From the NCBI RefSeq assembly GCF_041346945.1, contig NZ_CP166850.1, positions 5,192,501 to 5,256,500 on the forward strand: a stretch of 64,000 bases of DNA. The letters are read 5' to 3'. The notes beneath the pieces were generated by a model. That model did no database searches and was not told where the DNA came from. It worked only from the letters and a program-made list of their open reading frames with translations. This DNA is from Amycolatopsis sp. cg9. GTDB taxonomy: Bacteria > Actinomycetota > Actinomycetes > Mycobacteriales > Pseudonocardiaceae. Both the position numbers and the translations under genes were made by a program. Below, piece after piece: positions 33,963-38,045 of the stretch (the stretch's first letter is position 1; each line of letters starts with the position of its first letter).

Positions 33963-35045
33963 TCAGCGGCGCGCCCGGACCGCCTCGGCCAGCTCGTCCA
34001 GCAGCGGGGCCGTGTCGTCCCACGCCAGGCACGCGTCGGTGATCGACTGGCCGTACGTCAGCTCCTCCGCGTGCCCCAGCGAAAGGTCCTGCCGGCCGCC
34101 GGTCAGGAAGCTCTCCATCATCAGGCCCGAAATCCCGCGCTCGCCCGCCGAGATCCGCGCGGCCAGCTCGCGCACCACCGCGCCCTGGCGGACGTGGTCC
34201 TTGCCGCTGTTCCCGTGCGAAGCGTCGATGATCACCCGCTCCGGCAGGCCCGACTTCGCCAGCCGCGAAAGCGTGTCCGCGACCGTCGCCGCGTCGTAGT
34301 TCGGGCCGGTGTTGTGGCCGCGCAGGATCACGTGGCAGTCCGGGTTGCCCGACGTCGTCAGCAGGGCCGCGAGGCCGTCGGTGTTGATGCCGGGGAAGAC
34401 GTGGCTCGCGGCCGCCGCGCGGGTCGCGTCGATCGCCACCTGGACGTCGCCCTCGGTGGAGTTCTTGATGCCCACCGGCATCGACAGCGCGCTGCACAGC
34501 TGGCGGTGCACCTGGCTCGCCGCCGTGCGCGCGCCGATCGAACCCCACGTCACGATGTCCGCGATGAACTGCGGCGTGATCGGGTCGAGGAACTCGCAGC
34601 CGACCGGCAGGCCGAGCGCGGACACGTCGAGCAGCAGCCGCCGGGCCATCCGCAGGCCCTTGTTGACGGCGAACGTGCCGTCGAGGTCCGGGTCGTTGAT
34701 CAGGCCCTTCCAGCCCAGCGTCGTGCGCGGCTTCTCGAAGTACACGCGCATCACGACGTGCAGCTCGCCGCGCAGCTCCTCGGCCTTCGCGGCCAGCCGG
34801 CGCGCGTAGTCGAGGGCCGCCTCGGGGTCGTGCACCGAGCACGGGCCGACGACGACGAGCAGCCGGTCGTCCCGGCCTTCGAGGATGTCGACCGTCTCGG
34901 CGCGGCCCTGCCGCACCACCTTGGCCACGGCGGCGTCGACCGGATGGTCTTCGCGCAGCAGCGCGGGCGAAATGAGCGGACTGATCGACGTGGTGCGCGC
35001 GGCGTCGAGGTCACCGATGGTGGCGGGCCCGGCGGAGAGCGTCAT
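33963..35045 (-). CDS. 3-deoxy-7-phosphoheptulonate (DAHP) synthase, type I AroFGH-like
   Basis: The protein has 360 residues. Signature segments are LLVVVGPCSVHDPEAALDYA, MRVYFEKPRTTLGWKGLIND, GCEFLDPITPQF, GIKNSTEGDVQVAIDA, ILRGHNTGPNYD and VIIDASHGNSGKDHVRQ. This is the E. coli AroG-like type I-alpha enzyme for the first shikimate-pathway step (PEP plus erythrose 4-phosphate), not the type II enzyme (Rv2178c) found at this place in Mycobacterium. ATG 35045 has AGGAAGG upstream. A leader peptide gene with Tyr, Phe and Trp codons precedes it, so attenuation by aromatic amino acids is likely. Confidence 0.92.
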   Translation of the reverse strand: MTLSAGPATIGDLDAARTTSISPLISPALLREDHPVDAAVAKVVRQGRAETVDILEGRDDRLLVVVGPCSVHDPEAALDYARRLAAKAEELRGELHVVMRVYFEKPRTTLGWKGLINDPDLDGTFAVNKGLRMARRLLLDVSALGLPVGCEFLDPITPQFIADIVTWGSIGARTAASQVHRQLCSALSMPVGIKNSTEGDVQVAIDATRAAAASHVFPGINTDGLAALLTTSGNPDCHVILRGHNTGPNYDAATVADTLSRLAKSGLPERVIIDASHGNSGKDHVRQGAVVRELAARISAGERGISGLMMESFLTGGRQDLSLGHAEELTYGQSITDACLAWDDTAPLLDELAEAVRARR

Positions 35046-35091
35046 GGCGGGGGTGTTCCTTCCTGGTGGACACCGACCCGCGGGGGACTCG

Positions 35092-35117
35092 CCGAGCCGG
35101 TTGGAGATCCGGCTCGG
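35092..35117 (-). promoter_or_regulatory. Hairpin between leader peptide and DAHP synthase (candidate attenuator)
   Basis: On the minus strand CCGAGCCGG, loop ATCTCCAA, CCGGCTCGG forms a perfect 9-bp stem, 8 nt after the leader peptide stop. No U tract follows, so it is not a classical terminator. The AGCCGG in leader codons 9-11 can pair with CCGGCT of the 3' arm, giving a possible alternative fold. Confidence 0.6.
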
Positions 35118-35125
35118 GGTGGCGG

Positions 35126-35191
35126 TCAGCGCAGGTTCACGCCGCCGTGCCCACCCGGGGCCGGCTTCGTAAACCAGAAATAGCGCTGCAC
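35126..35191 (-). CDS. Aromatic leader peptide for DAHP synthase attenuation
   Basis: This 21-codon gene reads MQRYFWFTKPAPGGHGGVNL then Arg and TGA. Codons 4-7 are Tyr-Phe-Trp-Phe, the three end products of the pathway begun by the enzyme encoded 80 bp downstream. Such a cluster is unlikely by chance. Ribosome stalling at scarce aromatic tRNAs would control formation of the following hairpin. The start GTG 35191 has a TACGTT hexamer 6 nt upstream and no Shine-Dalgarno sequence, so the mRNA probably begins at the start codon. Confidence 0.8.
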   Translation of the reverse strand: MQRYFWFTKPAPGGHGGVNLR

Positions 35192-35197
35192 GGCGCC

Positions 35198-35203
35198 AAC
35201 GTA
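35198..35203 (-). promoter_or_regulatory. Candidate -10 of the leader peptide/DAHP synthase promoter
   Basis: TACGTT on the minus strand, 6 nt before the GTG of the leader peptide. I see no good -35. Confidence 0.55.
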
Positions 35204-36574: not shown

Positions 36575-38011
36575 TCAGATCCGCGCGAGCCGTTCCAGGA
36601 CGCCGACCGCGGCGGCGATGTCGTCGGTCAGGGGCCGGTCGTCGGTGCTCTCGTCCAGCACCTCCGACGCCAGCTCGAACGCGTCGCGCACCGGCAGGTC
36701 CACCAGATCCGCGTCGCGCATCCGCAGCGCGCGGACCGCCGCGACCAGCTCGCACGCCAGGACCTGCTGGTAGGCCTGGCACGCCGCCGTCGCCGCGCGG
36801 GCCGCCTGCGTCGAGAAGCTCGCGTGGTCCTCGATGCCGCGGGACACCACGGCCGTGCCGAGCGTTGCCGGCAGTGCCGCCTGCCGCAGCTCGGTCAGCG
36901 CGTCGTGCGCCACGTACTCGAGGATCATCACGCCCGAGCTGCCCGCCGGGCCCGCCGCGAGGAACGGCCGCAGCCCGGTGAACTCCGGCTCGACCAGGTC
37001 GCCCAGCCGCGCCACCGACAGCTCCGCCACCTGGTGCACGGTCGCGCGGGCCTGGTCCAGCGCCGTCGACACGTACGCCGTGTGGAAGTGCGCGTGGTGG
37101 TAGGCGTCGCCGTGCACCGTCGAGATCATCGGGTTCTCGGTGCTCGCGTTGATCTCGACCGCGAGCACGTCCCGCAGGTAGTGGATCGCGTCCAGCGCCG
37201 GGCCCTGGACCTGCGGGAACGCCCGCAGCCCGAACGGGTCCTGGATGCGGCGCCCCGGCTTCGGCGTCTGGTGCATGCCCAGCAGCCGCCGCATTTCCGC
37301 GGCGCAGGCGACCTGCCCCGCGTGCGGCCGCGCCTCGTGCACCGGCGTCGCGTAGGCCTCGGGGTTGCCGTCGAGCGCGACGTACGTCAGCGCCGCGACG
37401 GCGTGGCTCGCCCGGGTCAGCGCGTCCAGCCGCATCGCCGCGAGGGTCGCTTCGGCGAGCGTCGCGGCGTTGCTGCTCATGAACGCCAGCGCGTCGCCGG
37501 CGAGCACCGGCACCGGCGGCACGTGCCCGGTGACCCACGCTCGCTGGCCGGTCAGCGCCAGCGCCGTCTCCGCCAGCGGCGCGAGGTCGCCGGTGCCGAT
37601 CGCGCCGAGCCGGTGCACCAGCGGCAGCGCGCCGGAGCGGACCGCTTCGGCCAGCGCGCCGATCAGCTCGGGGCTGATCCCGGACCGCCCGGCGAGCAGC
37701 TGGTTCAGCCGGATCAGCATCATCGCCCGGACCTGCCCGGCCGGCAGCACGTCGCCGCTGCCGCCCGCGTGGCTGCGCAGCAGGCGCAGCCCGTGTTCCC
37801 GCGAGCTTTCGACGGTGTCGTCCTTGTTGGCCCCGACGCCGGTGGTCCGGCCGTAGACCACGCGCCGCGTGCTCAGGTCTTCCGCGAGCTTCCACGCGTG
37901 CTCGGCCGCGCGCTGCGCGGCGATCGAGACGTCGATGCCCAGCGGGCCCTCGGTGCGCGCCGCCGTCACGACGTCCGCGCACCGGAGGGTCCGGCCGTCC
38001 ACCCGGATCAA
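36575..38011 (-). CDS. Aromatic amino acid lyase (HAL/PAL) homologue with altered MIO triad
   Basis: The protein has 478 residues. Start TTG 38011 is fixed by AAAGGAGG (38019-38026) 7 nt upstream. The histidine ammonia-lyase fold is clear: YGRTTGVG (Tyr 53), QDPFGLRAFPQVQGPALDAI, EINASTENPMI, and GIEDHASFST. The segment that should read GASGDLAPL, whose Ala-Ser-Gly forms the MIO electrophile, reads GTGDLAPLAE here, with one residue missing and no Ser. The FMSSNAAT segment also departs from the usual LLNGT. It is therefore unlikely to use the normal MIO mechanism. Substrate and activity are unknown. Confidence 0.85.
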   Translation of the reverse strand: MIRVDGRTLRCADVVTAARTEGPLGIDVSIAAQRAAEHAWKLAEDLSTRRVVYGRTTGVGANKDDTVESSREHGLRLLRSHAGGSGDVLPAGQVRAMMLIRLNQLLAGRSGISPELIGALAEAVRSGALPLVHRLGAIGTGDLAPLAETALALTGQRAWVTGHVPPVPVLAGDALAFMSSNAATLAEATLAAMRLDALTRASHAVAALTYVALDGNPEAYATPVHEARPHAGQVACAAEMRRLLGMHQTPKPGRRIQDPFGLRAFPQVQGPALDAIHYLRDVLAVEINASTENPMISTVHGDAYHHAHFHTAYVSTALDQARATVHQVAELSVARLGDLVEPEFTGLRPFLAAGPAGSSGVMILEYVAHDALTELRQAALPATLGTAVVSRGIEDHASFSTQAARAATAACQAYQQVLACELVAAVRALRMRDADLVDLPVRDAFELASEVLDESTDDRPLTDDIAAAVGVLERLARI

Positions 38012-38045
38012 GGGCAGCCTCCTTTCGACTGCCCTCACTATGCGG

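Follow-up and report, generated by a model that had tools for sequence, protein, structure and literature searches.

Which signal is read by the region upstream of the type I DAHP synthase gene of Amycolatopsis sp. cg9, and at which level does it control this gene? In the window (i.e., the whole analysed stretch of 64,000 nucleotides, to which all positions refer), the gene product scored 483.8 bits against the TIGR00034 aroFGH model (with a cut-off of 173.2), and the gene is preceded by a leader ORF of 21 codons plus stop (66 nt by direct reading), the stop codon of which is located 80 nt from ATG 35045 (Table 1). In this respect, direct reading agreed with the original prediction of a 21-codon ORF situated 80 bp before DAHP synthase with Tyr-Phe-Trp-Phe at codons 4–7; as to leader length, the 21 codons given in its title stood, whereas the peptide that it wrote out ends after 17. 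The predicted 9-bp hairpin without a U tract could be read directly as well, beginning 8 nt after the leader stop. Folding of the region from the leader start to the ATG yielded a z of -3.1 (1/200 shuffles as low), and Rfam release 15 gave no match at gathering score in either the window or 19 loci.

Table 1. Features of the DAHP synthase leader region (window positions)
Feature	Positions	Strand	Remarks
-10-like hexamer TACGTT, with TGC before it (extended -10)	35198..35203	minus	6 nt before GTG
Leader peptide gene, MQRYFWFTKPAPGGHGGVNLR	35126..35191	minus	GTG start 35191; TGA stop 35128-35126; direct reading
Control codons Tyr-Phe-Trp-Phe = TAT TTC TGG TTT (codons 4-7)	35171..35182	minus	
Outer leader helix CAGCGC (35188-35183) / GCGCTG (35132-35127, at stop codon)	35127..35188	minus	MFE fold
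Segment 2, CCGGCCCCGGGTGG, codons 10-14	35151..35164	minus	partner of segment 3
Segment 3, CCACCCCGAGCCGG	35109..35122	minus	pairs with segment 2 or segment 4; hairpin 5′ arm plus flank
Hairpin 3:4, CCGAGCCGG / CCGGCTCGG	35092..35117	minus	9 bp, 8-nt loop, no U tract
Segment 4, CAACCGGCTCG	35093..35103	minus	pairs with segment 3 or segment 5; hairpin 3′ arm plus loop bases
Segment 5, GGGTCGGTGT	35070..35079	minus	pairs with segment 4 or segment 6; G-rich, before Shine-Dalgarno
Shine-Dalgarno of DAHP synthase, AGGAAGGA	35057..35064	minus	within loop of helix 5:6
Segment 6, ACACC	35052..35056	minus	pairs with GGTGT in segment 5, closing the loop around the Shine-Dalgarno
Type I DAHP synthase (aroFGH family), regulated gene	33963..35045	minus	ATG 35045

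An RTG-N6-YFWF pattern matched only once in the 10.6 Mb host genome (and nowhere when reversed), and 33 times in 120 Pseudonocardiaceae genomes (nine times when reversed). By coordinates, 22 of these 33 matches were located directly 5′ of a DAHP synthase match, the other 11 being close in number to the nine of the reversed control. Such counts and the leader survey detailed below indicate that leader conservation exceeds chance, which argues against an accident of the upstream region. The ORF could alternatively be a piece of a longer DAHP synthase reading frame, given that this frame is open to 35249, and thus through the leader, in the window. Nevertheless, the frame is open through the leader in just 13 of 47 loci without a terminator (defined below), the distance from leader to gene shows all three values modulo 3 among these 47, and several relatives' protein matches (L002, L005, L007) begin at residue 1, i.e., at ATG 35045. 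The frame being closed in most loci and the varying distance rule out the leader as an N-terminal extension, and either explanation, accident or longer frame, is in our opinion next to untenable.

The leader was surveyed in 137 regions upstream of actinobacterial DAHP synthase relatives (135 distinct after discounting two duplicates), taken from a named collection and from genomes of the host's family, order and class; non-actinobacterial records were kept out of this count. The type I DAHP synthase was found in 73/120 genomes of the family, 71/160 of the order and 25/148 of the class, and is not universal among the surveyed genomes. With a leader defined as a short ORF in which five codons close to the start include three or more aromatic residues (a promoter not being required), a comparable leader preceded DAHP synthase in 111 of the 137 loci. 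Among the 26 loci that failed this rule, four did hold a leader on inspection, either with an earlier start (L083, L094) or with two aromatic residues (L155, L156), and 14 were copies (52–59% identity) within the same family, roughly half being second copies. The leader of L177 is reduced to Ser-Tyr-Phe, and L178 and L182-185 are without one. When read by eye, two loci of a single genus (L107, L115) had kept the -10-like element and the hairpins with no aromatic-block leader ORF; these are natural leader losses. By the same rule, none of seven further actinobacterial loci outside the 137 (L011, L012, L028, L031, L035, L075, L081) carried a leader.

Within the host genus, type I DAHP synthase was matched three or four times in some other genomes (G015, G054, G085, G107, G206), and no comparable leader was found upstream of the extra copies L138, L142, L143, L145 and L150. 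The host genome also contains a type II DAHP synthase (G000:C1:5051470-5052753; L169), and the frames around it included no comparable leader, only other aromatic-rich ones. Short aromatic-rich ORFs were furthermore seen before DAHP synthase in Proteobacteria, i.e., in Dyella, Xanthomonas, Pseudoxanthomonas, Rhodanobacter, Burkholderia and Polaromonas (L037, L044, L045, L049, L072, L073, L077, L078, L080), with FYFWYYGF and KFYFYFFWY as examples and with a terminator-like hairpin following the ORF in L077. Rfam gave no match for L045, L072 and L080 of these.

The composition of the 111 leaders bore out the proposed control codons for Tyr, Phe and Trp: all three residues occurred within the first 14 positions in 102 of them, and an alignment of the window's close relatives showed MQRYFWF to be kept. 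Between clades, the order of the aromatic residues varies (YFWF, YYWF, YRWF, YPWF, YWWF, WYRF, YWRF). In seven of the nine leaders that miss one of the three amino acids (L171-L174, L176, L180, L181), the block is YPYF or YRYF and Trp is absent from the first 14 residues, so that these leaders may have come to sense Tyr and Phe alone. A drift of the YFWF codons out of frame, which was to count against the original prediction, was not seen in relatives. The leaders of the 47 terminator-less loci (window included) measure 66, 69, 72, 75 or 81 nt and, despite such length changes, all end in the same GCGCTGA in frame. Taken from sequence comparison, this pattern of conservation looks like that of a translated leader having an RNA role.

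Codon choice in the leaders was skewed as well, with TAT over TAC for Tyr (110 vs. 16, compared to 0 vs. 16 in three genes of the window) and TTT over TTC for Phe (109 vs. 45, compared to 0 vs. 26 in the same three genes). At the Tyr of YFWF, TAT was used in 22/22 pattern matches before DAHP synthase and in 1/11 elsewhere. Since the rows are related, no probability is attached to these codon and pattern counts.

Because the -10-like hexamer is situated only 6 nt 5′ of the GTG, the mRNA is predicted to be leaderless, with its start at or next to 35191. Across the 111 leaders, the distance from the first base of a TAnnnT element to the start codon is 12 or 13 nt in 94 counts, and no other distance reaches more than four counts. 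A transcript start downstream of 35191, which would have undone the original prediction, was not indicated, the predicted start being at the GTG. A consensus scan yielded neither a -35/-10 promoter pair at the leader nor a -35 partner for TACGTT. The same scan returned two overlapping terminator-like hits (35201-35181, minus strand; 0.1 expected) that span both the -10 element and the opening codons of the leader, and a transcript begun at 35191 would hold only part of this stem. The 9-bp hairpin itself (35117-35092) was not picked by the terminator scan.

Further upstream, a TTGATCGGT / ATCGGT motif was noticed on the minus strand of the window (35256-35248 and 35228-35221). It occurs 30–78 nt 5′ of the leader start in 26/47 loci, where mononucleotide shuffles expect approximately 1.2, and is present twice in the window and in six further loci. 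The motif may be an operator of the DAHP synthase gene, or may belong to the divergent phosphofructokinase gene. The latter is adjoined by a histidine/phenylalanine ammonia-lyase-like gene (36575-38038, minus strand), which stays below the hutH cut-off and possibly encodes an aromatic amino acid lyase or mutase.

The RNA role of the leader was examined by means of a swap test, in which two segments from one and the same locus are scored by duplex energy and compared with pairs having a partner swapped in from another locus. In the main test, segments were cut by alignment column instead of by pairing, across 47 terminator-less loci from which duplicates had been removed (i.e., 53 loci minus four of the WYRF clade and two with an uncertain leader start). 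Own partners yielded z values of -6.3 for 2:3, -5.8 for 4:5 and -6.2 for 5:6, each being reached in 0/2000 shuffles, and the control pairings gave +0.2 (2:4), +1.4 (2:5), +1.9 (3:5), -0.3 (4:6), +3.4 (3:6) and -0.5 (2:6). Helices 2:3, 4:5 and 5:6 therefore co-evolve, and the six control pairings do not. Thinning to 26 rows retained the signal (2:3 -4.2, 4:5 -4.1, 5:6 -5.3), and after thinning to 11 rows (2:3 -0.9, 4:5 -1.8, 5:6 -3.1) just 5:6 was clear.

These data bear on the previously proposed pairing of leader AGCCGG (codons 9-11) with CCGGCT of the hairpin's 3′ arm, i.e., 2:4. Both stretches are present and could pair, but they do not co-evolve (z of +0.2 in the main test and -0.4 in an earlier run), and this pairing was rejected; the co-evolving partner of the leader is instead the 5′ arm and its flank (2:3). 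In the earlier run, for which segments 3 and 4 of the 47 rows were placed by their own pairing, 2:3 scored -4.2 and 3:4 scored -5.9, the latter value being inflated by this placement and by four of the 47 rows being misplaced (L010, L085, L089, L090). With segments cut by columns in the 47 loci, hairpin 3:4 yielded a z of only -1.2; it is nearly invariant (97.9% of cells paired), and this invariance leaves the co-variation test without power. The outer leader helix was paired in 94.3% of cells with no compensatory change, and is unproven for that reason.

Alignment A1 (MAFFT, 35 of the 47 loci) gave 10 cells changed on both sides of 2:3 versus 3.6 in shuffles, and 31 such cells for 4:5 versus 12.9 in shuffles (0/500 in both cases), although for 4:5 two of five measures, namely how many such pairs and how many pair types occurred, did not exceed shuffles. 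Without being given a structure, RNAalifold chose 4:5, in which three pairs had both sides changed in 5, 15 and 11 of the 35 sequences. The edge bases of 4:5 change together (AAG/CTT, GGA/TCC, AGA/TCT, GAG/CTC), and some rows, the window's included, pair partly. With columns held fixed, helix 5:6 was unsupported (51.7% paired, a value reached in 72/500 shuffles, and a better score on sliding by -1) because segment 6 shifts against the Shine-Dalgarno; when at least four pairs were called for, 20/38 rows formed it versus 11.5 with swapped partners (15 of 53 rows having been dropped). In A1, neither the length nor the letters are constant for the loops and spacers that separate the segments. RNAalifold also paired the control codons CTGGTTT with GAGCCGG via three G-U pairs in nearly invariant columns, and the case for this pairing is weak.

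In many other Actinobacteria, including Micromonospora, Mycobacterium, Gordonia, Kribbella and part of the host's own family, a U-tract hairpin was encountered approximately 20–30 nt after the leader stop, inside the 3:4 loop. When segment limits were set by fixed distances in 33 such terminator-bearing loci, the z values were -3.7 for 3:4, -4.5 for 4:5 and -4.0 for 5:6, against -0.5, +0.2 and +1.8 for three controls; after thinning to 18 rows, 3:4 (-3.1) and 5:6 (-2.6) persisted, and 4:5 (-1.5) was close to the 3:5 control (-1.4). In five folds (L016, L030, L117, L131, L164), helix 2:3 abuts the terminator hairpin with 0–1 nt between them and no overlap. Since 2:3 thus stands side by side with the terminator and does not exclude it, 2:3 is not a classical antiterminator.

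Labelling of 117 loci yielded 54 terminator-bearing, 7 decayed and 51 terminator-less loci, next to 5 without a leader; for 21 of the 117, the label given by the automatic rule was overruled by hand after inspection. A quick tree of 108 rows with the chosen labels placed the 47 terminator-less rows on one side of a single branch (support 92, unstarred), requiring one change, and the neighbouring clade held four intact and six decayed terminators. The automatic labels required 10 changes on the same tree, and a single loss can be called likely only on condition that the hand labels are right. To judge from these comparisons, the window's branch seems to have lost a transcription terminator that others carry, with the translational part being kept.

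Taken together, the window contains a leader ORF with aromatic codons and, downstream of these control codons, alternative helices, of which 2:3, 4:5 and 5:6 are supported by co-evolution. We propose, with a probability of roughly 0.6, that the region acts as a leader-peptide attenuator on a leaderless mRNA, sensing charged tRNAs for Tyr, Phe and Trp jointly and controlling the first shikimate enzyme, here most likely at translation. Its parts differ in strength: leader control of the DAHP synthase gene is nearly certain, a response to each of the three aromatic amino acids is likely, and an output at translation is, on balance, what we expect in the window's lineage. With ample aromatic amino acids, the ribosome would clear the leader and 3:4 would form, leaving segment 5 for segment 6 and enclosing the Shine-Dalgarno in the small 5:6 loop (off). 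If charged tRNA ran short for any one of the aromatic amino acids, the ribosome would stall at codons 4–7, upon which segment 2 would capture segment 3, and segment 4 would be free to capture segment 5; formation of 4:5 would then release the Shine-Dalgarno (on). Many other Actinobacteria would have an additional intrinsic terminator inside 3:4, which would have been lost in the window's clade. As to the layout of the original prediction, its leader and hairpin were upheld; 4:5 and 5:6 were lacking from it, as was the U-tract terminator of relatives that is missing from the window's clade.

When the region was folded with a ribosome placed at each codon, stalls before the last aromatic codon led to a gain of more than 0.2 in the probability of 2:3 in 20 of 43 rows and to a loss in none, with a smaller change in 23 (the 43 being the 47 minus four with a misplaced hairpin; among all 47, 20 rose, one fell and 26 changed little). 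At equilibrium, the mean probability of 4:5 was 0.10 for the free RNA, 0.07 with the ribosome at the stop and 0.26 on stalling; against the scheme, the mean unpaired probability of the Shine-Dalgarno amounted to 0.50–0.53 in every state. At the last Phe codon, a stalled ribosome would lie over segment 2, and no switch is predicted. Equilibrium folding is a poor witness here.

The unchanged predicted Shine-Dalgarno access on stalling counts in favour of a leader that acts by transcription termination, either via 3:4 despite its missing U tract or via a Rho site that is masked or exposed by the stalled ribosome, with 4:5 and 5:6 being secondary. The relatives' U-tract terminators at the same place and the description of C. 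glutamicum aroR as transcriptional in the accessible part of a review (PMC11802643) point in this direction too. However, the window hairpin has no U tract and went unpicked by the terminator scan, and 4:5 and 5:6 co-evolve even in loci labelled terminator-less, where a purely transcriptional device would have no need of them. We therefore regard termination as an unlikely, albeit serious, contender, and between a translational and a Rho-linked mechanism the former appears to fit the evidence better.

Improbable, in turn, is the idea that 4:5 and 5:6 serve as a protein binding site or in the control of mRNA decay, with the leader regulating RNA stability alone. It can draw on L107 and L115, which keep the downstream helices without a leader ORF, and on the actinobacterial leucine leaders (LEU element), for which protein binding was proposed according to the portion of PMC1262725 at hand; but the variable loops and spacers speak against it, as does the fact that 5:6 brackets the Shine-Dalgarno with different letters in several clades. 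Still less credence is due to an arrest peptide, by which the stalled ribosome would sense via the nascent peptide instead of via tRNA charging at the aromatic codons. While a PA.GG stretch following the aromatic block is indeed conserved within the clade, between clades this stretch changes together with its RNA partner (CCG GCC CNG vs. GCT CCG GGT). Moreover, the aromatic order shuffles while the set is kept in 102/111 leaders, and rare synonymous codons are favoured in the leaders, neither of which suits an arrest peptide.

Our preferred reading of a tRNA-sensing translational attenuator can be compared with known systems. The E. coli trpL and pheL leaders combine control codons with mutually exclusive 2:3 and 3:4 helices, sense one amino acid each, use an intrinsic terminator as output and have a leader with its own Shine-Dalgarno. 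The window shares the control codons and the 2:3/3:4 alternatives, but differs in that three amino acids would be sensed, no intrinsic terminator with a U tract is present and the mRNA is predicted to be leaderless; since the U-tract terminator is absent, it is not a classical trpL-type transcription attenuator. Closer at hand, aroR of C. glutamicum is leaderless, with Neshat et al. 2014 reportedly being the original paper on it, and the mycobacterial cysteine leader of Canestrari et al. 2020 is said to work by unmasking a sequestered ribosome binding site.

The accessible texts on aroR describe a Phe-Tyr-Phe leader before aroF (PMC4046766) and a transcriptional attenuator with enhancement by ribosome stalling (2025 review, PMC11802643), in agreement with the original prediction's remark that leader control of DAHP synthase is known in corynebacteria. 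The window resembles aroR in having an aromatic-codon leader peptide before DAHP synthase; going by those same texts, it differs from this Phe-Tyr-Phe, transcriptional case in its Tyr-Phe-Trp-Phe block, its missing U-tract terminator and its helix chain ending on the Shine-Dalgarno. In M. smegmatis, leaderless cysteine ORFs on which ribosome speed depends on one amino acid regulate downstream translation, as far as the available part of PMC9031893 describes them, and the mycobacterial polycysteine leaderless short ORFs of Canestrari et al. 2020 are also cited in the seen portions of PMC9094748 and PMC13236596. The window shares with these a short ORF, here predicted to be leaderless, the amino acids being aromatic here and cysteine there.

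Leader-peptide attenuators of Actinobacteria have been described for trp, ilvB, leuA, leuS and trpS in the consulted parts of PMC1262725 and PMC8079986; like the window, they combine a short ORF, control codons and alternative RNA structures, several being leaderless and some being without a clear terminator. In the sections available to us, the actinobacterial survey of 2005 notes that conserved RNA structures were not seen ahead of phenylalanine and tyrosine operons (PMC1262725), and the S. lividans study lists eight leaders (leu, trp, ala, ilv, met, thr), with none for DAHP synthase (PMC8079986). A literature search, with subscription papers mostly outside it, returned no report of such a leader outside C. 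glutamicum. Leader control of DAHP synthase is already known from aroR, and the window would represent a new form of leader-peptide attenuation.

A wider reading, which we offer tentatively and at somewhat less than even odds, is that a hitherto undescribed RNA element acts twice in many lineages, i.e., via the terminator and then via the helix relay onto the Shine-Dalgarno, while sensing three aromatic amino acids, and that the window's clade kept the relay alone. Along this line, which is held equally tentatively, a transcription attenuator would have turned translational, with decayed intermediates in the neighbouring clade and with the element occurring in several actinobacterial families. 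DAHP synthase determines how much flows towards all aromatic amino acids, as well as towards many natural products of actinomycetes. If the proposed attenuator is real, a single leader with three types of control codon would explain how the shared first enzyme is released when any one end product runs short. If the wider reading is true as well, a regulatory device would have changed its output from RNA making to translation with the sensor left in place, and terminators are to be seen among relatives in intact, decayed and missing form.
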